The notes under the pieces: model-generated
Told to the model about the DNA's origin: nothing
Database searches by the model: none
What the model saw: only the letters and a program-made list of their open reading frames with translations
Part shown: one piece after another, positions 3,130 through 39,658 of the stretch
Layout of the letters: every line of letters begins with the position of its first letter
How positions within the stretch are numbered: position 1 is the first letter of the stretch
Program-made: the position numbers and the translations under genes
Source: Sphaerolaimus hirsutus
Taxonomy: Eukaryota > Nematoda > Chromadorea > Monhysterida > Sphaerolaimidae
DNA: 64,000 nt
NCBI GenBank assembly: GCA_964036195.1
Contig: OZ038452.1
Location: 434,001 to 498,000, forward strand
Direction: 5' to 3'

Positions 3130-3288
3130 GTGCTACTCCCAAACCCTGTAAAATGTCAAATGTCATGCAAAGTGTCAAACGCCATGTAAAGTTCCCTACA
3201 AAATGACAAACTAAAGTGAACGTTTTCCATGACTTTTGACACTTCTCACGACACTTGACATTTTACAGGGTTTGGGAGTGCCCCAGTC
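3127..3288 (+). mobile_element. CTGGTGCCAG-family TIR element forming an intron
   Basis: Begins GGTGCTACTCCCAAACCCTG and ends CAGGGTTTGGGAGTGCCCCAG (18+ paired bases). Arms share TGTAAAATGTCAAATGTC. It constitutes the intron between the two exons of the upstream gene. Confidence 0.78.
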
Positions 3289-19905: not shown

Positions 19906-19950
19906 AATAATGATAAAACCTAACTATTTATGAAAAAACCGCCCCCTCAG

Positions 19951-20650: not shown

Positions 20651-20759
20651 GCTGTGAATACGCGAAAGTGAATAGTGTCATTTAGATACATATTTCATGT
20701 TTATGTACACATATACCTAGGTCAATACCTAATCATTCAACAGCACAAAAAACACTCAG

Positions 20760-20942
20760 GCGGGGCATTCAGCGAGCCAGCAGGCGGCGAGCAGCACGGC
20801 GACGGTGCCGAGCGGGGCGTTGATCAGCCCGGAGCCGCCGCCGCACCGCCAGCCCGCCGCCACCATCGTCACGGTCGAGGACGAGACTGCGGTGGCGGCT
20901 GGTGCGGCTGCGCAGCGCAGGCGACTAGTGCCCAGACTGGCT
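20760..20942 (+). CDS. unc80: unc-80 exon 7 (linker, residues 322-382)
   Basis: Acceptor ACTCAG, phase 0 on entry. Encodes a Ser/Ala/Pro-rich linker with VTVEDETAVAAGAA. Not conserved enough to recognise alone; called from GC content, open frame and matching phases. The donor could be GCT|GTGCGT (20942) or CTA|GTGCCC a few codons earlier. Confidence 0.68.
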
Positions 20943-21187
20943 GTGCGTTGTAGATATTTGATGATTGGGTTGTGTTGTTACCACTTCCGAAAGCGTTCAG
21001 CTTTGAAAGTGAGCGAGCCCATTGGACATGCATACCCAGCAGAAATTGGAAACAAAATTCATAGGCGATTTTATCAAAATCGTTTTTTTCGGACTTATCG
21101 ACTTTTAGAAGTAAACAACTCGGTTGATAGCCCTTATCACAGTTCCCAACCCAACTGCAGTTGCATTCAATTGCCACTCATATGCAG

Positions 21188-21505
21188 GCCGTGGGTCGAT
21201 CCCAAGCCACAGTGTCCTCGTCGCCATCGGAGAGTCAGAGCACGCACGATTTCAACCAGTCGCAGCAGCAGTCGCAGCAGCCGCACCAGCAGTCGCAGCA
21301 GCGGCCGGGCGCCGCGTCGACGCGACTGCGGCATCATGACTCGACCACGGGCACGGACATGGACGTGGTCGAGTTGGCGGGGCCGGCCGACGTGCCGCAC
21401 AGCGACGAGATCATGATGAGCATGGAGGACGACTTCGACGCGACCGCCGTGGCCGACCAGCCGTGGCTCAGGGCGCAGTCGCAGCCGCCCGCGCCGCCGC
21501 ACGCA
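21188..21505 (+). CDS. unc80: unc-80 exon 8 (Gln/Ser-rich linker, residues 383-488)
   Basis: Acceptor TATGCAG, donor GCA|GTTCGT, phase 0 at both ends. Gln-rich at residues around 405-420 (QQQSQQPHQQSQQ), then an acidic part with EIMMSMEDDFDATAVADQ. Probably a disordered insert between conserved UNC80 blocks. Confidence 0.75.
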
Positions 21506-21730
21506 GTTCGTTTACCAAATCCAGGGCGCCCTTCAAATTGTCGCTCGTTAAGCGATGGCCAATTCCTCGGAAAAATGTTTAAATGTTCAAGTTTTTTAAA
21601 ATTACTTTTCGGATTTGAACTTTTTCCGAAAATAGTTTTTGAATTTATGAATTTTAGTTTTTCAACTTTTTGAAATACCTTTCAGACATTGTCATTCGAA
21701 CACAATTTGGTATATTTTTGTGTGGCGCAG

Positions 21731-21854
21731 ACCCCGGCGGAGGAGTGCGACCCCGGGGTGGGGCGGGCGCCGGTGCGCAGCGTGAGCGAGTACCGCAAGC
21801 GCATGCAGTCGGACGAGCACGCCAAGCTGTGCAAGACCGCCACCGACACCATGA
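21731..21854 (+). CDS. unc80: unc-80 exon 9 (linker, residues 489-529)
   Basis: Acceptor GGCGCAG after a T-rich tract, donor A|GTCAGT (phase 1). Encodes a charged segment with SEYRKRMQSDEHAKLCKTA. Phase 1 fits exon 10 exactly. Confidence 0.75.
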
Positions 21855-22210
21855 GTCAGTGCTGCACAACAAAGTTTTTATACCCCATGTTTTTTTTTAA
21901 ATGTTATCACCACGATTAACTTTATAAAGACATTTTGGAAGGACCGTTTGTTTACCCGTTTAGCTGATGCTAGAATACAGTCTTATTTCCATTGACAACC
22001 CGTATCAATAAGCAAGGGTCAATGAGGCAGAAAATGACTCCCGCCTCGAATAACACCACTGCCTGTGATTAACGAGAAATGCTCACCATTCCCACAAAAA
22101 ACACAACATGCACTATCAACTCACCGAACGCAAATTGAAGTAGAGTGGGAGTAATGTTATGACAAGGATATATTGGCTTATTGGCACTATGCCAGCAAAA
22201 TCCCACGCAG

Positions 22211-22392
22211 GGGCGCCAAAGCTGTCGGTCGCGGTGAACTCGTTCAGTCTGGGCGACACCAGTTCGCTCAAGTTCGCCGAGGACGGCAGTCTGAGCGAGG
22301 AGACGACTGCGTTCGACCAGAACGCGCCCATAGTCGCGCTGGAGGACATCTGCCGCAGCAGCAGCATCCAGAGCCCCAGCAGCGCCATGGAG
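22211..22392 (+). CDS. unc80: unc-80 exon 10 (linker, residues 530-590)
   Basis: Acceptor CCACGCAG, donor GAG|GTTAGC. Reads LSVAVNSFSLGDTSSLKF and a Ser/Glu-rich tail. The vertebrate region between the FTALVKP and YATYFDV blocks is also Ser-rich (GNSFDGSLSSQTSQ), but the match is loose. Confidence 0.75.
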
Positions 22393-22412
22393 GTTAGCGT
22401 CAATGGAGGGGA

Positions 22413-23097
22413 GGTTTACACACACACACACACACACACACTAGTTGACGTCAAAATAAGTGTCAACTAAAGTCAATTGAATTTTGGTTCATTTTTTTTT
22501 TCAACTTTCCTATATACCGTATTACCTCGAATTAACCCCCCCCTTGAATTAACCCCCCCCTCGAAATACCCCCCCTAAATTTCGGCTGAGGAAATAATAA
22601 ACCCCCCCCTCGAAATACCCCCCCTAAAATTGAGTGTAACGTGAACGTACATGACAAATACCGCAGTTTGTGCTCTGTACAATGCAGAACACACGTTAAA
22701 ACTGATGATTAAGTGACGTTAGGGAAGGTTTTTTGTGTATATACAGTTATATATGCCTATAAACACATATACGTCTATGTAATTGTTTGATTTTTCTACG
22801 TCTGCGTATGGGGAATTTCCGAAAATTTCTGGCGAAATAATAGACCCCCCCCTCGAATAAACCCCCCCCTCGAATTATCCCTCCCTCAAATTTTGCTGGC
22901 GAAATAATAAACCCCCTGGGGGTATTTCGAGGTAATACGGTAAATGTGTGATAAAGCATAATCAATTTTATATCGTGACACTTAGTTTTCATTGCTTCTT
23001 GCTTCAAAGTGTGATGCTTTTGTATTTTTTTGTGTTATATACCTAGTTGACATTCAGTTGACACGAAATTTGCGATGTCAACTAGTGTGTGGGCCCA
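22413..23097. mobile_element. CTAGTTGACA-family element with nested ACCGTATT element
   Basis: Starts in a (CA)n run (22419-22441) followed by CTAGTTGACGTC; ends GATGTCAACTAGTGTGTGGG. A complete ACCGTATTACCTCG-family element is inserted at 22515-22942. In unc-80 intron 10, starting about 20 bases after the donor. Confidence 0.8.
22515..22942. mobile_element. Nested ACCGTATTACCTCG-family element
   Basis: TACCGTATTACCTCGAATTA ... TTTCGAGGTAATACGGTA. Its right half (22696-22942) is almost identical to 49503-49746. Confidence 0.85.
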
Positions 23098-23465
23098 ATA
23101 AATTGGCTATTGATAAATTTATTGTCGATTTCAAGTCCATATGCAAAAAAAAGATAATGTGCAGCAGAACAGCACTTTTTTCCAACTTCAACCGAAATCA
23201 AAAGACTAGATATAGTGTCTGTGCTACTCGCATTGCAATATCGAAGGAAAAAGGGAAAATATTTCGGGTGCTTGGAACCAATTTCAATGGAATAATAAAT
23301 TTGCATATTTTGTATAGTTGGTTTTGCGTGTGCAGCTTAGTTCTAAGTTGGCTTGTGTGCAGTAGTGAAGCTGTAGCACCTTGAGTCCGTCTGTTTCATT
23401 GTCAGCTCAACTAGAATTTCTTTTTTCTCCCAGCAATTGTTTGGCGACTTGCCAGTGGTTAAAAA

Positions 23466-24035
23466 TAAACTCGGCGGACATGAAACGAATCAGTGATTCG
23501 GCCCTTCGTTACCAATGACGTGTGTTTTTTAATTCGAACTTGAATGGACGGATTCCATTCGGTTCATGATACATTTGATTCAATCCGACGTCTTATGCGA
23601 GAATGATGTGAATTTGATAGACAACTCGTCATAGAACGTCGGATTGTTAGGTCTTAGGTAAGATCTTACCGTCGCAGTCCCGACAAATTCATTCGAAAAA
23701 TTACGTATGAACTTACCGCTGCGTCCAAGTTACTGAAGCGTTTTATACGAACGAAGTAAAAGACGCATGATTTCCGTTCGCGTCAACGATAATGACCGCG
23801 GAATGCAATTAAGTCAACACAAGTGTCAACTCGTGTGTGGGCTGCCATTAGCAACCAATTGCGGTCGCTTAATCGCATTCCGCAGTCATTTTTGTTGACG
23901 CTGACGGAAATCATGCGTCTTTCATATTTGGTAACATTCTCGCAAACGGTAACTTGGACGTGTGCCAACTACGAATATACGCAGTTGTACGAAAATTCCT
24001 TAGACCATTGACTTCTATAATGTCCGTCGAGTTTA
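23466..24035. mobile_element. AAACTCGGCGGACAT foldback element
   Basis: TAAACTCGGCGGACATGAAA pairs with ATGTCCGTCGAGTTTA. Inner arms pair as GACCGCGGAATGCAATTAAG with CTTAATCGCATTCCGCAGTC. At the centre is a short CAAGTGTCAACTCGTGTGTG motif like the CTAGTTGACA ends. In intron 10. Confidence 0.75.
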
Positions 24036-24471
24036 TGTGTGCCGTTTTTAAATATATGCTATCATAAATAGTGTATTCAATAACCCATTAGCCGTCCAAA
24101 TAACAGATTTTTTGTTTGAAACTAATTTTGAGGTACTGTAAATTTGCTTTAATTTTGAGCTACTGTAAAGTGAGTGAAAAAAATTCTCACACATTCTGAA
24201 TGAAAAATGTACTAGTTAGGCAAAATGTTCTAGTTAAAAAGTAGGCAAAATAAAAACAATGCATTTTTATGCCGAAATGGATCAAATCGTCAATAATTTT
24301 TCACTCCAAACACTACAAATTCACATTGAAATTTGCCGGTAATAATCTCAATCCCACCATTCAAATCGCGCTACTCCATCCTTAAAATCCAGTCCCATTT
24401 ATACAGCGCTTTTCTACGCATTTCCTCGCAAATGTTCAATCGAGCTTGACAAATCCGCTTGACAAGTGCAG

Positions 24472-24678
24472 TGGCGCCCCGTGCAGTTGAGCTGCGCCAG
24501 GTGCGGCGGCGCGGGGAGCCAGCCGCGCGGCACGGCAGCCAACTGTTATCGGTGCAGCGCGACGGCCAGGACGAGCGCGTCCAGCCGGCCCGACACGGAC
24601 GACATGGCCAGCGTGGTCGGCCCCCTGCCCACCGACGCGCCCGGCGGCAGACACGCGCTCGCCAACAACGACAAGAGT
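24472..24678 (+). CDS. unc80: unc-80 exon 11 with CxxC pairs (residues 591-659)
   Basis: Acceptor AAGTGCAG, strong donor AGT|GTATGT. Begins WRPVQLSCARCGG and has a second pair NCYRCS 13 residues later, a C-x2-C-x13-C-x2-C arrangement that could bind zinc. I do not recall such a motif at this place in vertebrate UNC80. The rest is Ala/Ser/Asp-rich. Confidence 0.75.
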
Positions 24679-25247
24679 GTATGTTCGCTGCGCGCTCATG
24701 CTCGTGCTTGAGATTGCGCCGTGTACGTGAGCGATGGAACGCATTGGAGCACCCACCTAAAATACCACCCCCATTTTTTTTTCTACGCTCGCGACTCCGT
24801 GCGATTTCAAAATAAATAATAGCGCCCCATCGTTCAATGGCAGATTCCATCGCTGCCGTACATGGGCGTGGCTTGCGTTTGCAGGGAAATTTAACGCCTA
24901 CGTAAATTATAAAGCTTGTCCGAACGATTCCTGTTGTCCAAGTATGTGGGGTGTTTCCGACGGTGTCCAAATATCATCAAGGGATCTTCATCAGTAAACA
25001 AATGTTTTGGACTAGGGGGTCAAATTTCCGTTTTCCACTTTTCCACAAGAAATTTTTTTAATTTTTCGCTTTCCGTTTTCCGGCAGCTGCAAAATTTTTC
25101 ATTTCCGTTTTCCGGCAGCTGAAATTTTTTTACCTTTCCGTTTTCTGTGAAATATTTTTGACACCGTTGTTTTGACAAGACACCATACATGTAGCCGTTG
25201 GCTTGCTTCTAAGTGTGTTTCTTTTTGCGCCACAGTCGGCTCATAGC

Positions 25248-25943
25248 CCCTATATGAAGGGTGTGCTTCTAAAAGTACCGATCTACAAAAAAACGATTTT
25301 GAGATAATCGCGATTGAAAGTTTGGAGCATGCAATACCCATACATGGGTATTGGGTATGGGAATTTTGGGTAAGGGTACTTCGGCCATATTGTTGGGTAT
25401 CCACATGCATGGGTATAATCATTGATTATACACATAACACTAGCTATATAAAATTTAGGGAATTGTATTTTTGTAGTACAGTACATTTTAAAGGAACAAA
25501 TTGGTAATAGCGTGTAGATCGGTATTTTTTAAAGCACAAAATCAGAAAGCTGTAGATCGGTACTTTTACCCATAATAAAAAAGCACAAAATAAGTTTTTG
25601 CGCAACAGGACGCCGATCTGACATCGGTACTTTTAGAAGCACAAAAAATAATGTGCAGATCAGTACATTTAAAAGAACAATTTTGAAAAAAGTGTGTAGA
25701 TCGGTACTTTTAAAGACACAAAAGCTGAAAAAGCTTGTAGATCGGTACTTTTAAAATTTCAAAAACTGTATTTTGCGATTTTTTTGCTTTTTTCGACCCC
25801 CCATATCTCAAAATTGAATTTCGCACCCCCCACATATTATATATATTTTTGAAGCGCATTTTTATGGGGACCCCAAAAATGGTCCTAACTCAAATTTGAA
25901 AAATTTGTAGATCGGTACTTTTAGAAGCACACCCTTCATATGT
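25248..25943. mobile_element. GTAGATCGGTACTTTTA foldback with internal repeats
   Basis: The left end is ATGAAGGGTGTGCTTCTAAA; the right end TTTAGAAGCACACCCTTCAT is its exact reverse complement. At least six internal direct copies of GTAGATCGGTACTTTTA lie between 25514 and 25930, each near an AGCACAAAA. In unc-80 intron 11. Confidence 0.85.
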
Positions 25944-26114
25944 TTGCATGGGTCAATCCCATGTCAGGTTGGACAAAAAATTCGAATTACCGGTGGCGTG
26001 TTTTGCAATTTTCATACTCATTTATTCTGTGATGACAACTGGATAACAATTTTGTGCATATAAAGTTTTAGTGCGCTTTTTCATGACACTGCAAAATACG
26101 CCGAGCTGTAATTT

Positions 26115-26525
26115 ACCGTATTTCCTCGAAATACCCCCATGGGGTTTATTCTTTCAGAGTGGAAATTTTGAGGGGGGTATTTCGAGGGGGGGTCATTCGA
26201 GGGGGGGTTATTATTTCGCCAGAAATTTTCGTCAATTTAGTAGTAAACATTGCTTTGAAAATGCGCTAAACCGGTAATAAATGGGACGAAATAGGATATA
26301 TTTAGTCATGTTAACGTACATTCTCACTTACACTATGTATAAATATGTGTAGCTGCGGTGCAAACCGGCAGCAATAAATACGTTACATACGTTGCATAGA
26401 TGATGTACATCATTTCAGACGGAGGTATTTCCAGGGGGGGGGTATTTTTTTCTCAGCTCGAAAACACCTGGGGGTATTTCGAGGGGGGAGGGGTTAAATC
26501 AAGGGGTATATCGAGGAAATACGGT
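26115..26525. mobile_element. ACCGTATTTCCTCG-family element in intron 11
   Basis: ACCGTATTTCCTCGAAATAC and TATCGAGGAAATACGGT. Ends about 96 bases before exon 12. Confidence 0.85.
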
Positions 26526-26621
26526 ATCATCAAATCATCAGTCATCACCCAGCCACCAAAACAGGGCACTCAACCCATCCAATAACAGCCCAAATTCACA
26601 GACAGACCCCAATCCCCCCAG

Positions 26622-26787
26622 GCGTCGGTGTGCACGGAAGGCCAGTCGACGGTGTGCAACACCCCAGCCACAGTAGTGGAACGCAGGCACAAGCAGCGGG
26701 TCGGCCCGCAGACCAGCAAGGACACCATGAGCAGCACGACCACGGACACCACCTGGCACACCGGCACCCCGCCCAGCGTTTTGGGCA
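26622..26787 (+). CDS. unc80: unc-80 exon 12 (linker, residues 660-714)
   Basis: Acceptor after a C-rich tract (CCCCCCAG); donor GGCA|GTGCGT gives phase 1, which exon 13 needs. Encodes a Thr/Ser-rich stretch with VVERRHKQRVGPQTSKDT. A G-tract follows the donor. Confidence 0.75.
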
Positions 26788-27011
26788 GTGCGTTCGGAGG
26801 GGGGGGGGGGTTGCGTGTTGGCACAGTGCCAGGATATATAGTGGATGGCGTAATACTATGCGATGAATGATACCGTATTTTTATGAATAAGGTCACGTTG
26901 AAAATTGGGCACCAATTTGACCGGAAGTGGGAGCAATGTGATGTGATGAGAGAATAATGAATGTCTCTGTTTGTTTACGGAATATGGTAGATTTCATTGT
27001 GAATTGTGGTG

Positions 27012-27126
27012 GGGTTGGGGCGATATATCGTATTGAATATCAAATATCGACTATTTTTATCGAAAATCGACGATTCTTTCCCCTTGAATATAAAATATCG
27101 ATGTAAAGTCATATCGTCCCAAACCT
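27012..27126. mobile_element. GATATATCG-family element, copy 1
   Basis: GGTTGGGGCGATATATCGTA and TCATATCGTCCCAAACC. Interior of ATCGAATATCGA-type words. Other copies: 29756-29994 and 59571-60371. Confidence 0.75.
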
Positions 27127-27293
27127 AAGCAGGTGTCGTTACACATACTCTCACCCATTCGAAGAAAAACACTATGTTGTAATGCAGTCATCTTTTTATG
27201 AAAATTTTTTTAAAAGGTAGGTAAAAGTAACGGGAGACATGTCTCAAATTGGCATCATAACTACCCATCCAATAGGTTTAAAAACCCCGGGGC

Positions 27294-28235
27294 CAGATTT
27301 AATTCTCGTGTAATGCGCCCTACGTGAATGTAATGCGCCCGAAATCGGGCAGCCTCCCTACAGATTGTTTACGGTCGCCCTACCCTACACGCCAGGCTCC
27401 CGACACAACAGAACGCAATTCAATTGCATGTCGGGAGGTCGCCCTCGGGTGTAGGGCAACCGTAATCAATTTGTCGGGAGGCTGCCCGATTTCGGGCACA
27501 TTATTCACTCAAATGTTTACAACATAAAAAAAGAAAATGTCCAAAATGTTCAAAATAGAAAAAATATGAGCGACAACGAGCGCGTCCCGCCGCTGGCACC
27601 CACTTTTCGCATGTCATGCTAATTGAGTATAAAATGCGTGTGCAGTGCATTTTGTCGTTAATCTGAATACTGTACCTTGCTAATAGAAGAGCAGTTCTAT
27701 TTATTGGCTGACATTCTATTAAAGGTACGCCCTTCTATTAGAAGAAATGTGGTAAGGAACTGAATGTTTGGTCGATCAGCTGAATAACATCTGAATAAAA
27801 ATGCAATATTGAAATAGAATGACATGTTGGCACTGATAAAAATGATTGCTCCTCTTATTCACTATAGGGTGATAGTGAATGAAATCAACTGTGAACGGAA
27901 CAGAATCCGTCCATTCAATTTTGAATTTGAGACATGAGTAATTTAAAACATAAGTACCTAAATGGAACAAAATTGTACAGTCAAAAGTCCGTCCATCTTT
28001 ACTAAAGTTTACCGCTCCCGACAACATTTTTGTGAAGGGCAGAATTTTTTTCTTTTTTTATTTTGTCGGCCACGCGCCCGACAAAACGCGTGAATTGAAT
28101 TAGAAATTGATGTGTCGGGTGCCTTTCACGCATAACTCGGCTATCAATTGTACACGGATTTGTCGGGCGTGTAGGGAGACGCGTGTAGGGTGTAGTGCAT
28201 AACTTAGGAAAATTTGTAGGGAGAATTAAATCTGG
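27294..28235. mobile_element. Foldback with GCCAGATTTAATTCTC ends, in intron 12
   Basis: Left GGGGCCAGATTTAATTCTCG at 27290-27309; right GAATTAAATCTGGCCCC at 28224-28240. Interior has GTCGGGAGGC / TGTCGGGCGTGTAGGG motifs. A part of the ACCGTATTTCTTC type (TTCTATTAGAAGAAAT) lies inside at 27670-27752. A related unit lies at 56080-56250. Confidence 0.65.
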
Positions 28236-28306
28236 CCCCTGGCATACTGCTAATATTTTGTGTCTGACCACCCCACAATGTATTAAAAACTTACCGTTCT
28301 TTGCAG

Positions 28307-28441
28307 AATCTGATGCCGCCATGCCGCTGATAGCACCGAGCAGCCAAAGCGTTCCCGGCAGCAAAACGGAACTGCTGAGTGCCACCAGCCCCGCGACAGC
28401 CATCACCACCACTGGGTCGATAAAGATGACTGCATTTAAAG
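28307..28441 (+). CDS. unc80: unc-80 exon 13 (linker, residues 715-759)
   Basis: Good acceptor TTCTTTGCAG, donor AAAG|GTTAAT. Encodes SDAAMPLIAPSSQSVPGSK and a Ser/Thr-rich tail. Phase 1 at both ends and fully open. Confidence 0.78.
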
Positions 28442-28611
28442 GTTAATTTGAAATGGCCTGACCCGGAAACGTGTGGTGGAATTTTTTTTCACAAAAATTA
28501 ACCAGCCTGAATATACCTAGGTTGCTTTGACATATTGTGACTGACTGAATCAAAGCTTCCTATTCTCCTTCACTTGAAAAAAATAGCTATACAAATATTT
28601 AGCCTCCTTGG

Positions 28612-29020
28612 GGGCAGTCCCAAACCCTTTAAAGTGTCAAATGTCATGTAAAATGTCAATCAAACCAAAAACAAGAAAATATTTTATAACTGAACTTTCC
28701 ATGACAATTGACATTGGCGCTGCGCATGCTAGTTTACCGCCAGATTTTGGTAAACTCATAAATCGGTTGTGAACGCATTTGAGTTTACCAGAATGATGTA
28801 TCTGTCAACTGCAGTTGATGGGGATACCGAATAACTCATTCCAGTAAACTCAGAAGCATGTAAAGCCGATTTATGAGTTGACAAAAATGTGGCGGTAAAC
28901 TAGCGTGTGCACGCGCATTTTACTTTACATCGTCATGACAAGTGACACTTTGCACGACATATATGCCAGTTGACACTTTACTTAACACTTAACAGTGTCT
29001 GATATTGGCACCTGTACATC
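28612..29020. mobile_element. CTGGTGCCAG-family element split by a CTAGTTTACC element
   Basis: GGGGCAGTCCCAAACCCTTT at the left; degraded right end ATTGGCACCTG near 29015. The nested element occupies 28712-28917. In intron 13. Confidence 0.65.
28712..28917. mobile_element. CTAGTTTACC-family element, copy 1
   Basis: TTGGCGCTGCGCATGCTAGT ... ACTAGCGTGTGCACGCGCA. Interior pairs GAGTTTACCAGAATG with CATTCCAGTAAACTC around a central CAACTGCAGTTG. Confidence 0.8.
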
Positions 29021-29061
29021 TCATTAAAAACACACCAAAAACCAGCCAACCCAACTTTCAG

Positions 29062-29246
29062 ACGACAGCATGTCATCCCCAACCAAGCCACCAGTGGACT
29101 CGACAGCGGACACGGACAAGCCAGGCAGCACGGTGACGGGGCCGAGCACGTTCGCGGGGCACATGGCGTCGCTGGCGGCGGCGGGCGCGGGCGTCGGCCC
29201 CATGGCCATCAAGGACTGGGACGACGCCATGGCCAGGCTGCACATG
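29062..29246 (+). CDS. unc80: unc-80 exon 14 (linker, residues 760-821)
   Basis: Acceptor AACTTTCAG, donor ATG|GTCCGT. A Ser/Thr/Pro-rich stretch, then FAGHMASLAAAGAGVGPMA and KDWDDAMARLHM, leading into the conserved block of exon 15. Confidence 0.8.
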
Positions 29247-29344
29247 GTCCGTGCCCAGCGCTCATGTTTTATTGTTTTTTTTGGGTATCGGTTGAATGTG
29301 GGTGACTGAGTTATTATGATGGCTGGTTTAATCAGGTGCAATTA

Positions 29345-29556
29345 AGCGAGATGAGAAGCAGAAATTTTTTTTGAAATTAGAAGTTTAAAAGTTGGAAGCA
29401 ACGAGAAATGAGAACTGAGAAGTAAACAGTTAAAATCCGGTTAACTTTTTACTTGACATTTCACTTCTCACTTCTCATTTTCTCATTCTACGTTTTACTT
29501 CGCATTTCTCACTTCTAAAATGTTTTTTTTCCTTCTCCACTTGCGGAATTGACCTT
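29345..29556. repeat. CACTTGCGGAA-family element, degenerate
   Basis: Right end TTCTCCACTTGCGGAATTGA; interior of TTCACTTCTCA words paired with GAAATGAGAACTGAGAAG. In intron 14. Confidence 0.55.
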
Positions 29557-29610
29557 AGAAATGGACCCCTCCCCAGTGGCGCGCCTACCAAGTAACCTGT
29601 GTCTTCGCAG

Positions 29611-29695
29611 GTATTCGATGTGAACTCGTCACAGGCGACATACTTCGACGTGGCAGTTTTGCGCTGCTTGTTTATCAGGCAGTGGCCAGAAGACG
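29611..29695 (+). CDS. unc80: unc-80 exon 15 (residues 822-849)
   Basis: Acceptor TCTTCGCAG, donor G|GTATGT. ATYFDVAVLRCLFIRQWPE is nearly the family's YATYFDVAVLRCLLQPHWSEE. One of the strongest identity anchors. Confidence 0.96.
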
Positions 29696-29755
29696 GTATG
29701 TCGCATCTGCTGCCAATTCCGCAATTGACAAGTGACAAAAACATGCTGATTGGCA

Positions 29756-29994
29756 GGGTTGCGATGATATGATTTTTCGATATCGATATATTATATTCTA
29801 TATTTCTTCTGAATCTCGATATTCTATATCGATGTAGACCCTAGATATTTGATATCGATATTCAATAGGAAAATAGTCGATATCCGATATGAAAAATAAT
29901 GGATACTCGACATCTTTCAAAATTCGATCAAAAATTCTTTCAAAAGTTATATTTATAAAAGTTCAGATACGATACCTATATCGTCCCACCCCTA
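29756..29994. mobile_element. GATATATCG-family element, copy 2
   Basis: GGGTTGCGATGATATG at the left; CTATATCGTCCCACCCC at the right. Many CGATAT words. In intron 15. Confidence 0.65.
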
Positions 29995-30237
29995 CCGATA
30001 AGTGAATAAATAAGTTGTGAGTCAAATGACAGTAACTTTGTAAGTGACAATGCTTACCACTTATAAGTTTACTTGTCACTTGACTTAACACTTGCAACTT
30101 TCCTGCACCAACTTACCGTATCCCATTCACTTGTCCACTTGTGAAATTTTTCATCTCATTTTTGTTTGCTATCAGATTACAGCATCACCCCCAATAAGTA
30201 CATTTGCACATTTTGAATTTTGAGTGACAAATTTCAG

Positions 30238-30287
30238 GCGTCGTTTGGGCTCTGCACTACCTGAAAGGCAGACTATTCCAGTTTCAA
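30238..30287 (+). CDS. unc80: unc-80 exon 16 (residues 850-866)
   Basis: A 50-base exon after ATTTCAG. GVVWALHYLKGRLFQFQ continues exon 15 and matches TQWSLMYYLQRLRHMLEE of vertebrates. The end is taken at CAA|GTTGGT (phase 0); a stop follows soon after. Confidence 0.88.
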
Positions 30288-30453
30288 GTTGGTTAAATAT
30301 CCAGTACATGAATGCAAACATGCAATTTCTTTTGTAGCTGGTAAAATAGGTTCCACTTAACACAAAAGGTAGTAAAGCAGCATGGATCCCTCCAATGAAC
30401 ACTGGCCATCGCGTACCTGAGACAAAACACAGCCAGCCCCTGATATGGCGCAG

Positions 30454-30579
30454 GCGTTCGAGCGCGAGATGGAAGTGGAAAGTGCGTGCAGCAAACACGG
30501 CCGCCGCAGCTGCAGCCTGCCGCCGGGCACCAAGCCTCAATACAATCACACGGTCACGCCGCCGCCCACACAAAACCAG
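30454..30579 (+). CDS. unc80: unc-80 exon 17 (residues 867-908)
   Basis: Acceptor TGGCGCAG, donor AACCAG|GTGCCA. Encodes EREMEVESACSKHGRRS and a Pro/Thr-rich tail. The donor GT is the first base pair of a palindromic element that fills the next intron. Confidence 0.8.
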
Positions 30580-30730
30580 GTGCCAATCCCAGACCCTGTA
30601 AAATGCCCTGTAAAATGTCAAGTGTCATGCAAAGTGTCTCAAGTCATGGAAAATGGCAAACGTACGTTGACACTTTGCGTGACATTTGACATTTTGCAGG
30701 GTATTTTACAGGGTCCGGGACTGCGCCCAG
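30580..30730 (+). mobile_element. unc-80 intron 17, made of one TIR element (introner-like)
   Basis: This 151-base intron is one near-palindrome. It begins GTGCCAATCCCAGACCCTG, and its far end, read on the - strand, begins CTGGGCGCAGTCCCGGACC. The arms pair through CCCTGTAAAATG and the AAGTGTC blocks. The first base is the splice donor and the last three (CAG) the acceptor. It is one copy of the family also seen at 3127, 19650, 33108, 46245 and 59150. Confidence 0.8.
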
Positions 30731-30936
30731 GGTTCGTCGAAAACGGACGCGGACGTGGCCAGCCCCAGAGCGAGCTACCGCAGCACGCCTACGTGGGACG
30801 AACTGCAGCTGGCGCCGGGCACGCTGCGAGCGCTGAGTCGCCGCTGCGGCAGCGCCAGACTCCGGCCGCACGGCCAGATGCAGCAGACGCACGTCGCCTT
30901 CGCCGTCGACCAGCCGCACGAGGCGGCCGCCAAGAG
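30731..30936 (+). CDS. unc80: unc-80 exon 18 (residues 909-976)
   Basis: Follows the element-intron; its acceptor CAG is the end of the element. Reads STPTWDELQLAPGTLRAL, then HGQMQQTHVAFAVDQPHEAA. Donor AG|GTGCGC, phase 2. Confidence 0.8.
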
Positions 30937-31108
30937 GTGCGCCGCTCTCGCAATCGCGTGAAACTTGTTTGACAACCAGTGATTCAATTCAAAAGCGCCA
31001 TAACGACATATTTGGTCTTGAATCTGGTGGCAATTTTTTTGAGGTTTTTATCACTAAACGTAGAGGCGAAAAATGGATGAGATCATTGGCCAGTGACATC
31101 AAAGGGCA

Positions 31109-31212
31109 GTCCCGCATCGTGTAGTGTAACAGTCAAGTGTCAAATGTCAAGCAAAATGCCTTACAAATTTGTCAAATGTCATGGCATGTCAAAGGTCCCA
31201 CACCGTGAAAAA
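31109..31212. repeat. CTGGTGCCAG-family short element in intron 18
   Basis: GGGCAGTCCCGCATCGTG at the left; GTCCCACACCGTG near the right, without a perfect end. TCAAGTGTCAAATGTCAAGC inside. Confidence 0.6.
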
Positions 31213-31255
31213 AATTCACCTTAACCATCCATGAGCATAAGCGCGCATCGTCCAG

Positions 31256-31382
31256 GGTGTCGGCGCCGCCGCCGCAGCACCGGAGCAGCGCGAAGACGGG
31301 CGGGCAGCTGGCGCAGCACAAACGCATCGTGCGCAGCGCCACCCAGACCAACTTGACCGGCGTCGGCGGCTACCTGCCCGAG
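31256..31382 (+). CDS. unc80: unc-80 exon 19 (residues 977-1019)
   Basis: Acceptor TCGTCCAG; the first G completes Arg. HKRIVRSATQTNLTGVGG resembles the vertebrate SKVSLTNLRRSAVPDL region. Donor GAG|GTCTGT, phase 0. Confidence 0.82.
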
Positions 31383-31778
31383 GTCTGTGCATGTTCACAG
31401 GGAATTTTGGTTGAATAGGTACATCGCTGACAACTTTGTCTATCTACCTAGGTGTAAAATATCTTGTTCCAGTTGAACCCCTCCCCACGGTCCAGTTAAA
31501 TATATTTTTCTATTAATTTTGCCAGTAAATAAACACTTAAAATCAATAAGAAAAAATCAGTGACATATACTCTGTAAACGTATAGCAACACATCAATACC
31601 CCTAAGATAGTCGAATTGTGCCTAATCAGTATCATAAGTCGCATTTTTAATAACGTTTTTGCCTAGGCACCGGTATGCACATGAGAATATTAGCCGTATT
31701 TGGGCATGTGAACATGCGTTGAGGGGGCAAAAAGCCACCCGAAGTGTTGCCAGGGCACACTCATACACACACAAGCAG
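31383..31778. other. unc-80 intron 19, no exon seen
   Basis: Searched for the roughly 200 residues that vertebrate UNC80 has between the exon 19 and exon 20 blocks; only AT-rich sequence and no open GC-rich stretch. Confidence 0.6.
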
Positions 31779-31982
31779 GCGGTGGGGGCGGCCGACCTGG
31801 TCGACTCTGCGGGGCGTCTGTCGGGGGCGATGGTGCTGCGCGCCGTGTCCATGGCGCTGCAGCGGGCGCCCTCGCTGCGCGTGTGCGAGCCGGCGCTGGC
31901 GCTCGTCGACCTGCTGCTCAACGCGCCCCCCGCCCTGCTGCAGTTCGAGCCGGCGCTCACGCCCGGCGGCGCCAATGCCAAG
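31779..31982 (+). CDS. unc80: unc-80 exon 20 (residues 1020-1087)
   Basis: Acceptor AAGCAG, donor AAG|GTGCGT. VLRAVSMALQRAPSLRVC and ALALVDLLLN match the family's VVLKAVYLVLNHDISSRICDVALNIVECLL. A roughly 200-residue vertebrate segment that normally precedes this block has no counterpart between exons 19 and 20. Confidence 0.94.
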
Positions 31983-32231
31983 GTGCGTCTTCCCCTTTGA
32001 CATTCATTCAATTGGTTGATAGGTTTAAAGCCACGAGACATAGTCAAACATATAAAAATCTAGCGGAAAAGGTCAAAAGTTCAAAAAGTATTCAAAAAAT
32101 TTCGAAACATTTTCGAGCTCGAAAAATTTCGAAACATTTCAAAAATTTCGAAACAAAACAAGCTGCCATCATAAATATATGCCACGCATAGAATAGGGAG
32201 TAGAAAAGCGTGCACACTTTCAACAATGCAG

Positions 32232-32440
32232 TTCTCGGTGGCTGGCGGCCGCTCAGAGCAGCACAAGGCGTCCACCGGCACGGCGGCAACTGCGGCGCGC
32301 AAAAAAAGCGACGCGACGAGCAGAGGCAAAACGCCGCTGGGCGCACGGCCGTCGGCGGCGCCGTCGCTCTTCACCCAGGCCAACGACGACGCCGACGACA
32401 CCCCCGACCCCTACCCGAAATTTATGAATGCAGTTTTCAG
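32232..32440 (+). CDS. unc80: unc-80 exon 21 (residues 1088-1156)
   Basis: Acceptor AACAATGCAG, donor TTTTCAG|GTGGGC. A basic Ser/Ala/Lys-rich linker, then NDDADDTPDPYPKFMNAVFR, which leads into the VYQVLGCAHGC block. Phase 2. Confidence 0.85.
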
Positions 32441-32521
32441 GTGGGCGCGGGGACACGCACACACTGGTGCTTTTTCATACACGTGAATGATTGGCAGGCA
32501 GGTGCGGTGATGTTTATCCTG

Positions 32522-32680
32522 TGACAAGTCACAGTTCCTGTAAAATTTTATGTAAAGTGTAAATGGTAAAGTAAAATGTCATGGAAAATGCCAAGAGCCA
32601 GGTAAAAAAATTGAAGTTGACATTTTACGACTGTTCACATGTTAATTGCATCTTACATGGTCTTGGAGTACCCTCTGAAC
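32522..32680. repeat. CTGGTGCCAG-family element in intron 21, degenerate
   Basis: CACAGTTCCTGTAAAATTTT, then AAGTGTAAATGG; right side ACATGGTCTTGGAGTACC. 32840-32880 nearby has repeated TTCAAAACACAG words. Confidence 0.55.
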
Positions 32681-32907
32681 ATGCATAAAAAACCTGGGAT
32701 AAGAAAACCAACTGCATTGAAACACTGCCTCTGGGTAAAATCATTGTCTCTGCGTAAAAACTTGCATTTTATGAAAAACTCCGGTTTTCAGCAAAACACA
32801 GATATATAAAGCAAAAACCTCAAAACACAAGTATTGATTTCTGAAAAATTCAAAACACAGTGTTTTTTCAAGAAAACTCAGCCACCACTGCACTTTGCTT
32901 ATCGCAG

Positions 32908-33058
32908 GGTGTACCAGGTGCTGGGCTGCGCGCACGGCTGCACGGGCGAGTTCGCGCTCGACGAGGAGGAGGACCAGACCCCCGAGGCGCTCGCCGCCAT
33001 GGCTCTCCGCGCAGAGTACCTCCGCGCACAGGCAAAGGCCACGCTCGCAATGCTGCAG
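32908..33058 (+). CDS. unc80: unc-80 exon 22 (residues 1157-1207)
   Basis: Acceptor TTATCGCAG, donor CTGCAG|GTGCAT. VYQVLGCAHGCTGEF matches IVKSLGCAYGCGEG of vertebrates, followed by an acidic helix and a helix ending AKATLAMLQ (family: AQNCLTKLY). Confidence 0.93.
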
Positions 33059-33107
33059 GTGCATGTCTGGCGCAATCGGGTCGCCGTTCGCACTCGTTAC
33101 ATTCACT

Positions 33108-33320
33108 GGGGGCAGTCCCGGGCACTGTAAAATACCCTAAAACAATGTCAAATGTCATGCAGTGTCTAAAGTCATGTAAAATGCCCTGCAAAATAGCAAC
33201 CGAGTTGGCGGGAATCGAGTTTCCATTTTGCAGGGCATTTTCAATCACTTTAGACACTTTGCGTGACATTTTACATTTTACAGGGCATTTTACAGGGTCT
33301 GGGATTGGAACCTGGCGTAG
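33108..33320. mobile_element. CTGGTGCCAG-family element in intron 22
   Basis: GGGGCAGTCCCGGGCACTG at the left; ACAGGGTCTGGGATTGGAACC at the right. Arms pair through TGTCAAATGTCATGCAGTGT. It fills most of the 288-base intron. Confidence 0.8.
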
Positions 33321-33346
33321 GAATGTCGATTGAACGACGCACGCAG

Positions 33347-33515
33347 ACGCGAGATCGTCTGCGGTTCGCTTACTGCATCGGGGAGTTGGTGCGCAGCTGG
33401 CCGGCGCAGCGCACGGTGGACTTGGCGCACGCGCTGTTCACCTTCTGCCGCACCGACGCGGCCGCCTCCGCCGCCGCCCTAGCGCTCGCCAGCGCGCCGC
33501 ACGCGCCCAACTTAG
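33347..33515 (+). CDS. unc80: unc-80 exon 23 (residues 1208-1263)
   Basis: Acceptor CGCACGCAG at 33346 gives TRDRLRFAYCIGELVRSW and RTVDLAHALFTFCR, which aligns at the right length with KMQFRQTMRDYVN and NNVVDFLHALLGFC. An upstream in-frame CAG inside the adjacent repeat is an alternative acceptor but would add unconserved residues. Donor G|GTGAGA. Confidence 0.9.
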
Positions 33516-33961
33516 GTGAGACACACTGGCAAAGGCACGCAGGGTACTGTTGGGCAGGTTTAAATGTGATAAGTGTTAACGTGACAAGTAGCTAGTGTAT
33601 TTATCAATATGTCATAAATGAAAGTAGAAGTAGAGATGGTAAAAGACCAATTTGATAAATCTTCAGTCTAAAAAATTATTTCAGTATTGAAAATTATTTA
33701 CAAAACAATTATTAAATTTTCAAACACCTTTTTCATAGTTTACTGAAGATATCTTTCATTTAAAATACAGGTTTACTTTTCACAAATCTCATTTATCACA
33801 GTTATATTTCTATTATTGCGTGTTTAATTTTCGAATAGCCAGTTTGATTCTGAAAAATGTCGACATTTCACTACAAATTCCCACTAAAGTGGCGAAATTA
33901 TGTAGTTTAAGAAAATATGTAAAATCAGCACATGACTTGCACTGGCGCCCATGTACCCAAT

Positions 33962-34190
33962 CCAATGGCGCTGCACACACTAGTTTACCAATGGTCAACT
34001 AAGAATTTGGTAAACTCATTTTTCAGCTTCTTCGTGCATCTGAGTTTACCAGAATGTGTAATTTTTAATCTCCGTCAACTATAGTTGACGAATAGCCCAT
34101 TCCGGTAAACTCAAATGCGCTCAGAAGCTGACAAATGAGTTAACCAAATTCTCAGTTTACCGTTAGTAAACTAGTGTGTGCAGCGCCAAT
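33962..34190. mobile_element. CTAGTTTACC-family element, copy 2
   Basis: CCAATGGCGCTGCACACACTAG at 33962 and CTAGTGTGTGCAGCGCCAAT at the right: perfect ends. Inner arms pair GAGTTTACCAGAATG with CATTCCGGTAAACTC. Ends 28 bases before exon 24. Confidence 0.88.
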
Positions 34191-34217
34191 GAAACACCAA
34201 GAGCAACCTGGGCGCAG

Positions 34218-34489
34218 GCTCGCCTACGCAAGACGACCGCAGCGGCGACTCGGTGCAGGGGCGGCGGGGCAGCGCGGCAGCTGCGGCCGCGCGACGCAAG
34301 GGCATGTCCGAGATGCAGAAGGCCATGTCCAAGGACAGGGAGTCCACCCTGCCCGTGATCGGCACATACAAGAACAACTTTCTGAGCGGCAAGCACGGCA
34401 TTGACGAGGCGCTCATCGACGCGCTGCTCAAGCCGCTCGTCACCAAGCTCATGGACAAGATGAACGAGCTCCTGCAGCCGGAGAACATG
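34218..34489 (+). CDS. unc80: unc-80 exon 24 (residues 1264-1354)
   Basis: Acceptor GGGCGCAG is the only one that restores phase 1, because an in-frame stop lies just upstream. Contains TLPVIGTYKNNFLSGKHG, then LIDALLKPLVTKLMDKM and QPENM, matching VSAMFKSLITR...HSPENLGLY. Donor ATG|GTCAGC. Confidence 0.92.
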
Positions 34490-34883
34490 GTCAGCCCACC
34501 CGCCGGCCATTTTAAAGATACAAAGCAAATTTTAAAACTAATATGCAATTTTAAAACAATGCTATTTCCTGAAGGCAACACTCCACCATGACGTCATCTT
34601 TAATAAAAAAGATAGTTCCTAAAATATGTCCTCATCCTCAAGCATTGTAACGCATGTTGATTGAATTCGATTCTGCCCTTTTCTTTTAAAGTATTTTTCG
34701 TTTTGTGAAAGTGCAATCATGAATTATCGTGCTACCGCGTCATCAACCACATCATATTTAAGTAATCTTGGGCGCATACCTTGCGTTACTCCGAGTATAC
34801 CTAATTTTTACTGAATTTTGTCGTAGGGTTTCGTCCACCAATACCCGAGCACACAAAAATACAAGTCACTTTTTGCATTACAG
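34490..34883. other. unc-80 intron 24, no repeat recognised
   Basis: 394 bases of AT-rich sequence without a clear inverted repeat, one of the few such introns. Confidence 0.5.
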
Positions 34884-35029
34884 AGTCTGTACGACGACGT
34901 GCGCTCGCTGATCGGCTACACGCAGCTGCACTACGGCAACCCGTTCAGGCGCGTCGAGCTGAGCGCCTTGATCGACGGCGGCAGACTCATGCAACCCGTC
35001 GCAAACACCGGTTCCATGAACGATGAAAC
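34884..35029 (+). CDS. unc80: unc-80 exon 25 (residues 1355-1402)
   Basis: Acceptor TTGCATTACAG. SLYDDVRSLIGYTQLHYG and NPFRRVELSALIDGG match GLYCDIRQLVQFIKEAHG-NVFRRVALSALLDS closely. The donor AC|GTTAGT gives the phase 2 that exon 26 needs. Confidence 0.95.
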
Positions 35030-35639
35030 GTTAGTTTTCACGTACGAACGTTGCAAACGTCCTTATAGTCTTCGAATCTACGGTAGTGGGAATTCCCAAC
35101 GTAACGTTTGCACAAAATATTAACTGTGTAGATATAGAAACAGACCCGTGGTGGTACGATGGCCGTGAATTCACTCACATCCCTAGCGAAGTTGCCGTTG
35201 TCTCACACAACACGATAAGATTTTGTAAAGTTAGATATTGTAAAAGTAACACTTGACAGCACCAACTTGATCTGTTGCACATAATCTCTTAAGTGAATCA
35301 AAAAATACTTTTTAATCGAGAAAATGTGTGCCGTGAGCCCTTGATGGCCAGACACATGCATTATCAAACATAGTTTTGCATGTATTTACCATTTCTTTTT
35401 ATAGCTCAGTAATGTTGAATGTCCCGAATAACAACACAAGGCCCCCTTTGCTTGCTGATGGCTTCCAAACAGTCATTCTCCTGTGTGCCGTGCCGTTTTG
35501 CACCCTTGTCTGCCTAAAAGCCGAATGGCAATTGCAATTATCCAGCCTTTTTCACTTCCCAGAGTTGATACATAGTCCACCCACGCAACCAATAATTTTT
35601 AACCAGAACTAGCCAAACTATTTATACCTAGATACCTGG

Positions 35640-35846
35640 CGCCAGTTCCGCAAGTGGAGAAGTGAGGAACCGTTTGATAAGTGAAATGGAAGTGAAACTG
35701 GAAGAGAATTAATAGAAGTGAATTGAAAAGTAAAAGTATTAAAAAACAAATGGCAAACAGCTAAAAGGACAAAATATTGAAAATAATATTTTTTTAAAGA
35801 ATGTCAAACGGTTTTTCACTTCTCCACTTGCGGAACTGGCCTGGTT
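35640..35846. mobile_element. CACTTGCGGAA-family element in intron 25
   Basis: GCGCCAGTTCCGCAAGTGGA and TCCACTTGCGGAACTGGCC: perfect ends, then TTTTTCACTTCTC paired with AAGTGAGG. Copies at 39659 and 54055. Confidence 0.85.
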
Positions 35847-35985
35847 ACGTCCCAAAATTAGTGAGACATCCAACTTGCATGTTTTCAGCTTCAATTCAGG
35901 CTAAAGTTAACTTTTAAGCCGCACCGGGTTTGCAAGCAACGCGGTAGCAAGTGATGATCACACTAATTGGGAGGCAGCCAGGCAG

Positions 35986-36279
35986 TGTCCAACCCGGGCG
36001 TGCACCCTTTAGCCAGTCGAGTTCGTCGACGGCCACCGTGGCGGCGGTGGTGGCGGCCGCGCAGGCGTCCCTGTCGCGCGCCAACCCGCCGCCCGCGCCG
36101 CCGCACCAGCCGCCGCCGCTGTGGGGCTGGCCGGGCCGCAAGGACAGCGGGCAACGGGCGGCTGCGACGCACACGCACGACCGGCCGCGCCGCAAGAGCA
36201 CCATCGGGCTGCAGCTGGCCGCCAAGGTGGGCATGGTCATGCCCACAGTGCTCGTGTCCACCGCCGGCGACGCACTCAG
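35986..36279 (+). CDS. unc80: unc-80 exon 26 (residues 1403-1500)
   Basis: Acceptor CAGGCAG, donor CTCAG|GTGACG. Ala/Pro-rich, then basic (RPRRKSTIGLQLAAKVGMV), probably the counterpart of the basic region before the vertebrate RSRRISLRKKLKLP stretch. Phase 2 at both ends. Confidence 0.8.
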
Positions 36280-37730
36280 GTGACGTTGAGCTTTGGCTGC
36301 AAGTGCATGTCGCTGGCCGCGGCCGCCCTCTTTCCCGCTTTGCCCCTTTTTAGTATGCAGTTGGCTTGCTTGCTCAGCACCAAGCTTCTCTTTTCACCTC
36401 ACATGTGACACATGACACTGATTTTATTGGGAAGTCAGGCGCCCCACATTGTCGGGCTTGTCGGGTGCCTTGCTTTTGAATTAAATCGGCCCGATGCATG
36501 ATCAAGTCAATCATCAATAGTATAATATTTATTTGGCAGTTTATAAAAATCGCGATGTTGCGGCTTCGCAGACTAATGCAATTGAACCATCTACTTCTAA
36601 AAGTCTAATAATTCCATAGTTTAGTTGATCCGGGAAATAGCGTCTGGAATCAATTTCCATTTGTTGGACTTATAAACTTCTTGCTGGAATCATTCAACAT
36701 TTATCCAAAGGTTATTTTGTGGACTCCATTGTTCTGTGCTACATATGCTGAAAAGTTGACATTCATAAACAATAAATAGTTGCACATTTACTATTTTCTA
36801 TTATGAAGCCAATTTGACATGCATCACTGGCAGAGAACTCACAATGAAATTTTCGTGAAATCAGTCAATTTTTTTCATCTTATCGACTTTTAGAAGTAGG
36901 CGCCTCATTTTCCTTTACTCAAACCGATTTTTCAGTTGACAGCAAGCCAACTTTTGAGGCCAGTGCAATTTTGAGAAGTTCAATAGAGGCTGTGAAGGAA
37001 GCTTGGCGTAATGAAAGCATGCATTTCTGGGCTTGATGTGCTACTTAATGAATAGACATGGTATTTACTCCTAACTCACACACCTAGAATATAGTATAGA
37101 AAATTCATAGGTTTTCATATTTTTTGTTTTGTTTCTGCCAGTGTGGTGCATCATCTTTGTATAAATTATCATCCATGAATGGACATTTGTTGTAAAACAC
37201 CCGGGAACAAACAAATTATACCACCAATTATACACAGTTTGTTACAGTATATCTACTTTTTGTGAACATGTTCTCATTATTAAAGTGCCTACAATTAGGC
37301 CCCTTGAAAAATTACCGCGCCAGGTTTTTGTTCATAAAAAGTGAAAAAATGCTGGAAAATATGACCCCAGAAGAAGTAAAATACACCCATTGCGGTATCA
37401 AATGTTTTTCAAAAAATTACAAAATTAAAATCTACCAAAAAAAACCGAGAAGGTCTGCAGCCTGCACTACATAATCAAATCCAGTAATGGACCATACCAA
37501 AAATGGGTACGTTAGGTCATTTGTGACCGAAAGCTGAATTCAAATCAGCCACCGGCACCCATCGTGTTCTAGTTTAGACACTGCGCATGGCAGAGCGTAA
37601 ATATATCAACCCGCCCAACCCCTTCGCTTGTGCAATCCCTGAAGCGTTGTGCATCAATTACACAACATACGTTCAGTGACAACGTTTGATCTTAACGTGT
37701 CGCGTGAGTAAACCACGGTCAATGGTTACA
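36280..37730. other. First part of unc-80 intron 26, no exon seen
   Basis: AT-rich. CTACTTCTAAAAGTCTAATA near 36591 and TATCGACTTTTAGAAGTAGG near 36883 form an inverted pair about 300 bases apart, so a further foldback is likely. 37262-37474 is an open but AT-rich stretch without coding character. Confidence 0.45.
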
Positions 37731-37734
37731 CGGG

Positions 37735-38100
37735 GCCACCGGGGGGTCTCCAATGGGTCGCGGGGGGGGGGGGGGTAATGCGGGAAAAAAATGTTCCCTA
37801 CTACCACCTGAACCCCACCCATCACCCCAAATCAGCCATCTAGCTATCGGCAACGATTTTTGAGAAATTTTGCCCAAAATCGGTGATTTTAGACTTTTTG
37901 TCCATTATCACCTTCAAAATCATTAGTTCATGTGATTTTTACCTACTTAAAAGTACACCGTTGGAATTTTGGAGACTTATAAATCTGTTTGGAACACACT
38001 TGAGTATACCAGAATGAATTATTTTTGATCAGTCAACGTAGCTGACAGATTTCTCACTGTGGCGAACTCAAATGTGTTAAAAACATTTGTATGGGTTTCC
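37735..38100. repeat. CTATCTATC-family element followed by a partial CTAGTTTACC element
   Basis: G-tract and CCCTACTACCACCTGAACCC, ATCAGCCATCTAGCTATC, then from 37950 AACACACTTGAGTATACCAG and GTCAACGTAGCTGAC. Confidence 0.6.
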
Positions 38101-38284
38101 CAAATTTCGGTGATGTGCTGGCGCGCGCAGTGCCAATACCGAGCGGTCAGGGGGTTGCACAGCCTCCAGGGGGTAACTTGATTAACAAATTACGCACGGC
38201 CAAGCGCGAAGCCTGTTTTACCCATGTTGTCGGCCTGTCAAAGACAAAAACGAGATTATATAACCTTATTTGCTTTGCAGCAAG

Positions 38285-38400
38285 CAACGGAAGCTATTTT
38301 GAAACTTTCAGAGGCGGCTCAAAGTCGTCCACGGGCGGCGGCGAGCAGAGCCAAACATCCCGCCGGGCATCCACCAGCGTTTTACAAGGAGTCATCCATG
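38285..38400 (+). CDS. unc80: unc-80 exon 27 (residues 1501-1539, frame inferred)
   Basis: Two frames are open here. NGSYFETFRGGSKSSTGGG fits phase 2 on entry (acceptor GCAGCAAG) and phase 1 on exit (CATG|GTGAGC), so it is chosen. The other frame (QATEAILKLSEAAQSR, acceptor TTTGCAG) fits neither neighbour without an extra exon. The end at a consensus donor is firm; the start is less so. Confidence 0.65.
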
Positions 38401-38410
38401 GTGAGCAATG

Positions 38411-38615
38411 GCCCCGCAACACTACACTAGTTGACATTTGAAATTGCCAAAACCGGGAAAAATCCGTTCTAAACACATTTGAGTTTACCACTATGTATCA
38501 TTTATGACCCCCATCAGCAGTAGTTGACTGACCCTCTATTCCGAAAAAATTCACGTGTGTTTTAAAACAGATTTAACGGCTTTTGGACTTTCGGTTTTCA
38601 ACTAGAGTGTGGGGC
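38411..38615. mobile_element. CACTAGTTGACA element just after exon 27
   Basis: CACTACACTAGTTGACATTT and TTTTCAACTAGAGTGTGGGG. Interior CACATTTGAGTTTACCAC pairs with AAAATTCACGTGTGTT. Begins about 10 bases from the exon 27 donor. Confidence 0.7.
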
Positions 38616-39189
38616 GTTTGGCGAGTGCACTATCAGTAGAGCTCATTACTTAGGCGCAATTAGCATTCGAAAAATGACCTATTTTCCCGAAAATATATAT
38701 CAATATATCACTCAGAATTTTTAAAAATATAAATATATATAGATCTCGCCAGCTTTTCAGAAAATATATAATAATTACTGAAAAAAATCACTCTAAGCAG
38801 AAAAAATTTTATCAAGACAAAGACATTTATCAAGTAGTATTCATTTCAATACAATATTTGACAAGTTAAAAACATGAAACAACCATCACAATACAAAAAT
38901 TTGACATAAAACTTTGATGACAATTTCAAACACATTTTGCACTCAACCTATGGTGCTACACACCCTGGATGTCAACCGGTTTTGATATCAACTTAATTTT
39001 AGTTCTATAAATAGAATGCCACAGGACAATTTTGAAATGCATATTTGGCAATGTCAAAAATGTAACCAATATTGCCATGCGCATTTGAACATTGTGTGTA
39101 GAGCCAAAGTTGTTGACCAAAATTTGATTGCATCGCTTCCAAATTTGATTTTGAGACATGAATATATCAATGTCTGCTCAGTGGTCTCT

Positions 39190-39430
39190 AACAGGGGAGG
39201 GGGTGGTGGGCGTAACCCCATGCCCAAATGCTAGCTAACCCCATGTCCAGCTAGGTATTTATCTATCTATCCCTTACGCAAATTTTTTTACTGCTAAACC
39301 CTGAACCCGTCCCCCAAATTGGCACCGCTGTCTAGCTATCAGAGCTATTTTTGAGAAATTTTTGCTTAAAATCTCTAATTTTTATACCTTTTTTCCCATT
39401 TTCAACTACAAAAGTGTTATTTTAGGCTAA
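39190..39430. repeat. CTATCTATC-family element in intron 27
   Basis: TAACCCCATGTCCAGCTAGG, TATCTATCTATCCCTTACGC and AGAGCTATTTTTGAGAAATT. Followed by AT-rich TATAAATATG words to 39600. Confidence 0.65.
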
Positions 39431-39658
39431 ACACATAGTTGTGTACCTATTTTCAGTGCAATATATCTAGTATGAGTGATTTTCTGTGATTTTTTAAAAT
39501 AAAAAAAAAATATAAACATATCAGAGATTTTGAAAAAAATATAAATATGTATAAATCTTATATATATTTATATTTTTTGTGATTTTCGAAAATATAAATC
39601 ACGGGTGATTTTTTGAATGCTAGGCGCAATAGAAATAAAAGGCTTTTCCGCTAACACC

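Follow-up and report, generated by a model that had tools for sequence, protein, structure and literature searches.

Can a mobile element that lands in an exon of an animal gene be spliced out at its own ends and so become an intron? The question is raised by a near-palindrome in an unc-80 gene of the nematode Sphaerolaimus hirsutus, at positions 30580 to 30730 of a 64,000-nucleotide stretch of contig OZ038452.1 (434,001 to 498,000, forward strand), hereafter the window. From the sequence, we consider it very probable that this element belongs to a large family of non-autonomous DNA transposons acting as introners in an animal.

The element in unc-80

The gene was identified as UNC80 by matches of other window segments to the Pfam UNC80_N and UNC80 central region families and to unc-80 chains in the PDB; the two segments adjoining the element gave no match of their own. 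The element is a near-palindrome of 148 bp that separates two in-frame unc-80 exon segments and has a CAG on each side, in the order ..AAAACCAG–GTGCCAATCCC...GGGACTGCGCC–CAG–GGTTCG (Table 1). A preliminary description had taken a 151-base near-palindrome as the intron, supplying both its GT and its AG. The palindrome does lie between unc-80 exons and the GT is the element's own, but the last three of the 151 bases are the duplicate CAG, and the AG comes from this second CAG of the target-site duplication. The arms comprise 69 nt of inverted sequence with 83% complementarity, and as RNA the element is predicted to form a single long hairpin (-97.9 kcal/mol, z -16.5), a stability equalled by none of 200 shuffled sequences.

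Table 1 Coordinates of the features discussed, as window positions unless another location is given
Feature	Position	Strand	Remarks
unc-80 exon segment, upstream, ending ..CAAAACCAG	30454..30579	+	open frame; best codon score with phase 0 at 30579 (scored from 30464); predicted start after GCAG
Left CAG of target-site duplication, putative exon end	30577..30579	+	3-bp pattern common to the family
Element, GTGCC end (putative donor GT at 30580) to GGGACTGCGCC end, long hairpin	30580..30727	+	
Right CAG copy, putative source of acceptor AG	30728..30730	+	
unc-80 exon segment, downstream	30731..30936	+	frame and synonymous difference; predicted to stop before GTGCG
Family copy in upstream gene, GTGCT end first	3130..3284	+	last base also readable as first of second CAG (3284-3286)
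Family copy, opposite orientation, CTG both sides	33109..33311	-	apparently within an older unc-80 intron, boundaries predicted
Second unc-80 copy	L009 and L010 (G000:C3:560000-579999)		aligned to window 19892-39564

When the element and one CAG are removed the unc-80 reading frame goes on, and the right segment has a codon score of +0.196 in the frame so obtained, against -0.433 and -0.303 in the other two. A second unc-80 copy, either a retained haplotype or a true duplication, lies about 103 kb off on the same contig, with identities of about 95% over the longest match and 85-99% over the larger ones. Both copies carry the element, at lengths of 148 and 160 bases, and their right segments differ at one of 207 bases, a difference that is synonymous in the seamless-removal frame only. 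Retention and translation of the unc-80 element would be conceivable in that an open stretch (30430-30960) spans it, but we give this reading very little credence: it would put the downstream segment in the frame scoring -0.303 instead of +0.196 and turn the single difference between the two gene copies into a replacement. Read-through would also be ended by stops in 16 of 17 translated copies from the family sample, if the stops in the context of L030, L034 and L069 are counted; L032, L052 and others have stops within the element itself.

A large family with unlike ends and 3-bp duplications

A genome search with the element's end had been suggested as a check, and it bore out the existence of a large family. 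The GTGCC-end pattern, with up to three mismatches, matched the 348-Mb assembly 19,584 times (9,819 forward and 9,765 reverse), while the same pattern read backward had no match in the same assembly. End matches exceed copies because one element may match at both ends; on a rough estimate the genome may hold some ten thousand copies. Allowing up to three mismatches, the 64-kb window contains 22 occurrences of a 14-base end where 2.7 would be expected. The CAG count in the genome search was 634 exact matches, and exact searches of viral contigs and of bacterial and archaeal genomes with two related family patterns returned none. At G000:C4:2389241-2389603 the matches show a 50-base periodicity, suggestive of tandem amplification of a segment of the element.

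The two ends of the element are unlike (GTGCCARTCCC and GGGGCAGTCCC). The family consensus, for which 44 sampled copies were combined with two window copies (46 rows), is nearly palindromic, with four differences in 188 aligned bases. Identical 3-base flanks were found in 38 of the 66 copies with both ends recognised, namely CAG/CAG in 21, CTG/CTG in 14, CGG/CGG in two and CCG/CCG in one. Being short, present in high copy number, bounded by inverted repeats and flanked by target-site duplications, the family is one of miniature inverted-repeat elements (MITEs), that is, non-autonomous TIR transposons. Duplications of 8 bp are typical of the hAT superfamily, membership of which is ruled out by the 3-bp length in those 38 copies. 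The PIF/Harbinger superfamily makes 3-bp TWA duplications, so that the length agrees, with CAG/CTG as the motif here instead.

These features suggest how an intron could be made. The element would insert mostly at CAG or CTG, duplicating these three bases, and an insertion with the GTGCC end upstream into a sense-strand CAG would give exon-CAG–GTGCC...CTGCCCC–CAG–exon. The donor GT would then come from the element and the acceptor AG from the duplicated CAG, removal would restore the exon exactly, and an exonic insertion cleanly spliced in this way would be a new intron. Splicing is presumed to occur at exactly these bases and transposition to depend on a transposase supplied from elsewhere, and the introns would represent gains rather than ancient presence. 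The expectation that the element would be spliced precisely wherever it lands in an exon would hold for one orientation only, because the ends differ (GTGCC and GGGGC) and a GT stands at the edge in that orientation alone. The proto-splice-site idea would acquire a concrete mechanism here, in which the CAG targeted by the transposon is well suited to end an exon and its duplicate serves as the acceptor.

Copies at coding-like junctions

We sampled 70 of 100 listed end-match places, of which four had no recognisable second end and seven were dropped as near-duplicates, leaving 59 copies. The sampled copies were chosen by an intact GTGCC end and come from two contigs, and the exonic share of the sample is therefore not transferable to the whole family. 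The flanks of each copy were joined and given a codon score, for which coding-like window segments served as the training set, with sites shifted by 500-1000 bases as controls. At thresholds of 0, -0.1 and -0.2, respectively 7, 10 and 14 of the 59 element sites passed compared to 2, 7 and 12 of 348 shifted sites; the last threshold was picked after the scores had been seen, and the picture is the same at the other two. With respect to the gene, 13 of the 14 coding-like element sites have the GTGCC end upstream, compared to six of the 12 shifted sites, and the sole antisense call among these 14 (L019) reads as sense by eye.

Pfam searches point the same way. At E<=0.01, nine of 43 sense joins (L069, L030, L032, L077, L055, L047, L033, L067 and L076) and none of 50 antisense joins had a match (p 0.0006), a comparison in which treatment was unequal, as several sense joins had been picked or extended by eye. 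All 50 antisense joins were submitted, and 43 of the 51 sense joins (L036, L043, L054, L056, L060, L063, L066 and L072 were left out). L055 was submitted as left flank only, and L047 has its match at a distance of over 40 residues from the join; when both are left out, the counts become seven of 43 and none of 50 (p 0.0034). A conserved domain passes through the join in eight copies, either matched (L033, homeodomain; L077, ALIX; L032, AMP-binding; L069, kinase-like; L030, calpain) or recognised at other places in the retrieved sequence (L007, carboxypeptidase; L003, glycine-receptor domain; L013, zinc finger). As in introners generally, element ends thus fall at exon borders, here predicted ones, in many genes, and the preliminary description of an introner-like TIR element is borne out and reinforced by the excess at coding-like junctions, the single orientation and the domains that run across the joined flanks.

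By eye, 21 of the 59 copies were called sense-coding, a list outside which L047, L067 and L076 gained Pfam support later. At the edges of these 21, GT and AG are both available in 11 CAG/CAG and two CTG/CAG copies, and AG is lacking in six CTG/CTG copies. A right-hand CAG is present in 13 of the 21 and in 14 of 37 others, a difference that is not significant (p 0.10). An ordinary MITE lodged in pre-existing introns or spacers, its ends matching the splice sites at 30580 by coincidence, would account for the copy at 33109-33311, which looks so, and for the 37 of 59 sampled copies not called coding (including the three with later Pfam support). We nevertheless regard it as very improbable for the family, given the excess at coding-like junctions with 13 of 14 in one orientation, and the Pfam matches confined to sense joins with domains crossing them.

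Splicing might also start within the element, from GTAAAATG, 18 bases inside, so that each insertion would add six codons. The frame would be kept in the CAG copies examined, but six residues would then be added to homeodomain helix 1 in Abd-B, a place at which the seamless join aligns to fly Abd-B with no gap, and CAG-GTG fits the donor consensus better than CCT-GTA does; an inner donor consequently appears highly unlikely. We prefer seamless removal for the CAG copies.

Several single joins are worth recording. Among the 120 best matches for Abd-B, those that carry a name come for the most part from arthropods and nematodes, and one is from a fish. Two family copies, both CAG/CAG and sense, lie in what is apparently one carboxypeptidase gene at L007; the second adjoins a carboxypeptidase-like motif, and its join had no Pfam match. 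L045, a sense copy with CCG/CCG duplications, has the top codon score of the sample. Its right edge lacks both AG and TG, and its join matched nothing in Pfam.

Exonic copies with CTG duplications

The six sense-coding copies with CTG/CTG duplications can have no GT-AG pair at their edges, as a consequence of the duplicated sequence: sliding the cut along the CTG yields only GT-TG, GG-CT, TG-CC or CT-CC. Splicing at the edges of CTG targets would therefore have to accept a TG acceptor, and on the simplest reading these copies would be GT-TG introns, perhaps made possible by the hairpin drawing both ends together. In two copies of the CTG type, L069 with a cyclase kinase-like domain and L003 with a glycine-receptor domain, the conserved domain is continuous with no gap at the join. 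In-frame GT-AG introns can be drawn for CTG copies only awkwardly, with a GT 44 bases inside the element in L069, at the cost of three added codons in L030, or with the loss of five codons in L048, in which the in-frame AG lies 15 bases downstream and which is therefore no proof of TG use. That the family forms seamless introns at CAG and CTG targets alike, with TG accepted as acceptor in many genes, is a tentative proposal to which we would give somewhat less than an even chance.

The CTG copies in exons could alternatively be broken alleles or duplicates without function. Their edges offer no straightforward GT-AG pair, and the assembly contains near-identical duplicate loci, both of which would fit. 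However, the divergence of alignable CTG copies from the consensus is similar to that of other copies, and the flanks of the CTG copies retain open conserved domains. In the L048/L049 pair, moreover, the exons differ at one of 120 bases, with no residue changed, and the elements at 14 of 163. Since the alignable CTG copies are about equally diverged, and the L048/L049 exons have been kept while the element drifts, broken alleles do not readily account for the CTG class, and we judge them rather unlikely. The element diverges more than the flanking exon in the near-identical pairs of unc-80, L048/L049 and L071/L073; in the L057/L058 pair it is not more diverged than the flanking exon bases.

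Unequal flanks also occur: eight of the 66 copies have a left CTG and a right CAG, and three have the reverse. The former combination is unaccounted for by the model; in L032, L057/L058, L067/L068, L005 and L006, which have it, GT-AG splicing is possible despite the unequal flanks.

Relation to known introners

In excerpts of the survey by Gozashti et al. (2022; PMC9860276), introners are reported from only two animal groups, and those with one splice site of their own and the other from the duplication form a described class, with 4-bp cases in Symbiodinium and Chrysochromulina. Like the introners described there, the present elements are non-autonomous, have TIRs and short duplications and lie between exons; they differ in combining TIRs with a 3-bp CAG/CTG duplication, in having the donor on one TIR only and in their animal host (PMC9860276). 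The IE-B and IE-D elements of Micromonas, as presented in excerpts of PMC3879977, use GT-TG splice sites such as the CTG copies here would need, but are algal, number 25 and six members and are very variable in length. Amoebophrya introner elements likewise have inverted repeats forming a hairpin and direct repeats of 3-5 nt over the exon borders, according to excerpts of PMC7789003, with very variable, non-canonical ends, whereas in the present family the ends are conserved and orientation matters. No description of the family was found in excerpts of the introner literature, including PMC9860276, PMC3879977, PMC7789003, PMC12621601 and PMC10597677, a result of little weight as the search was made by terms other than the species name.

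Introners are rare in animals, and a family of perhaps ten thousand copies with a sizeable exonic share in the sample would, if the interpretation is true, make intron creation observable at scale. The CTG class would bear on whether TG acceptors are used on a substantial scale by an animal spliceosome.

Other family copies in the window

The intron at 3130 in the upstream gene had been described as a further element of this kind. A family copy is indeed present there, but its seamless removal does not keep the frame: once 3130-3286 is excised, the best stop-free frames on the two sides are out of register with each other. For a GT-AG intron in frame, one would have to use an inner AG at 3278, which is the junction originally proposed, a GT at 3123 beyond the element's edge, or other inner GTs. 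This copy, out of frame if removed seamlessly, and the fact that most sampled copies are not demonstrably exonic both weigh against the introner reading.

The relatives at first listed as sharing the same ends are a mixed group: the one at 19650 has no recognised second end, that at 33108 has the opposite orientation and seems to sit within an older intron, that at 46245 is a diverged relative, and those at 59149 and 59293 are neighbouring diverged copies. A seamless join at 33106 was tried and rejected; the assumption was wrong and the joined sequence matched nothing. Between the two gene copies of unc-80 there are nine large indels resembling other mobile elements; on inspection none of the nine was family-like, two or three having single weak end matches. 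Between 59149 and 59453, two or three diverged family copies follow one another head to tail at a spacing of about 145-150 bases.
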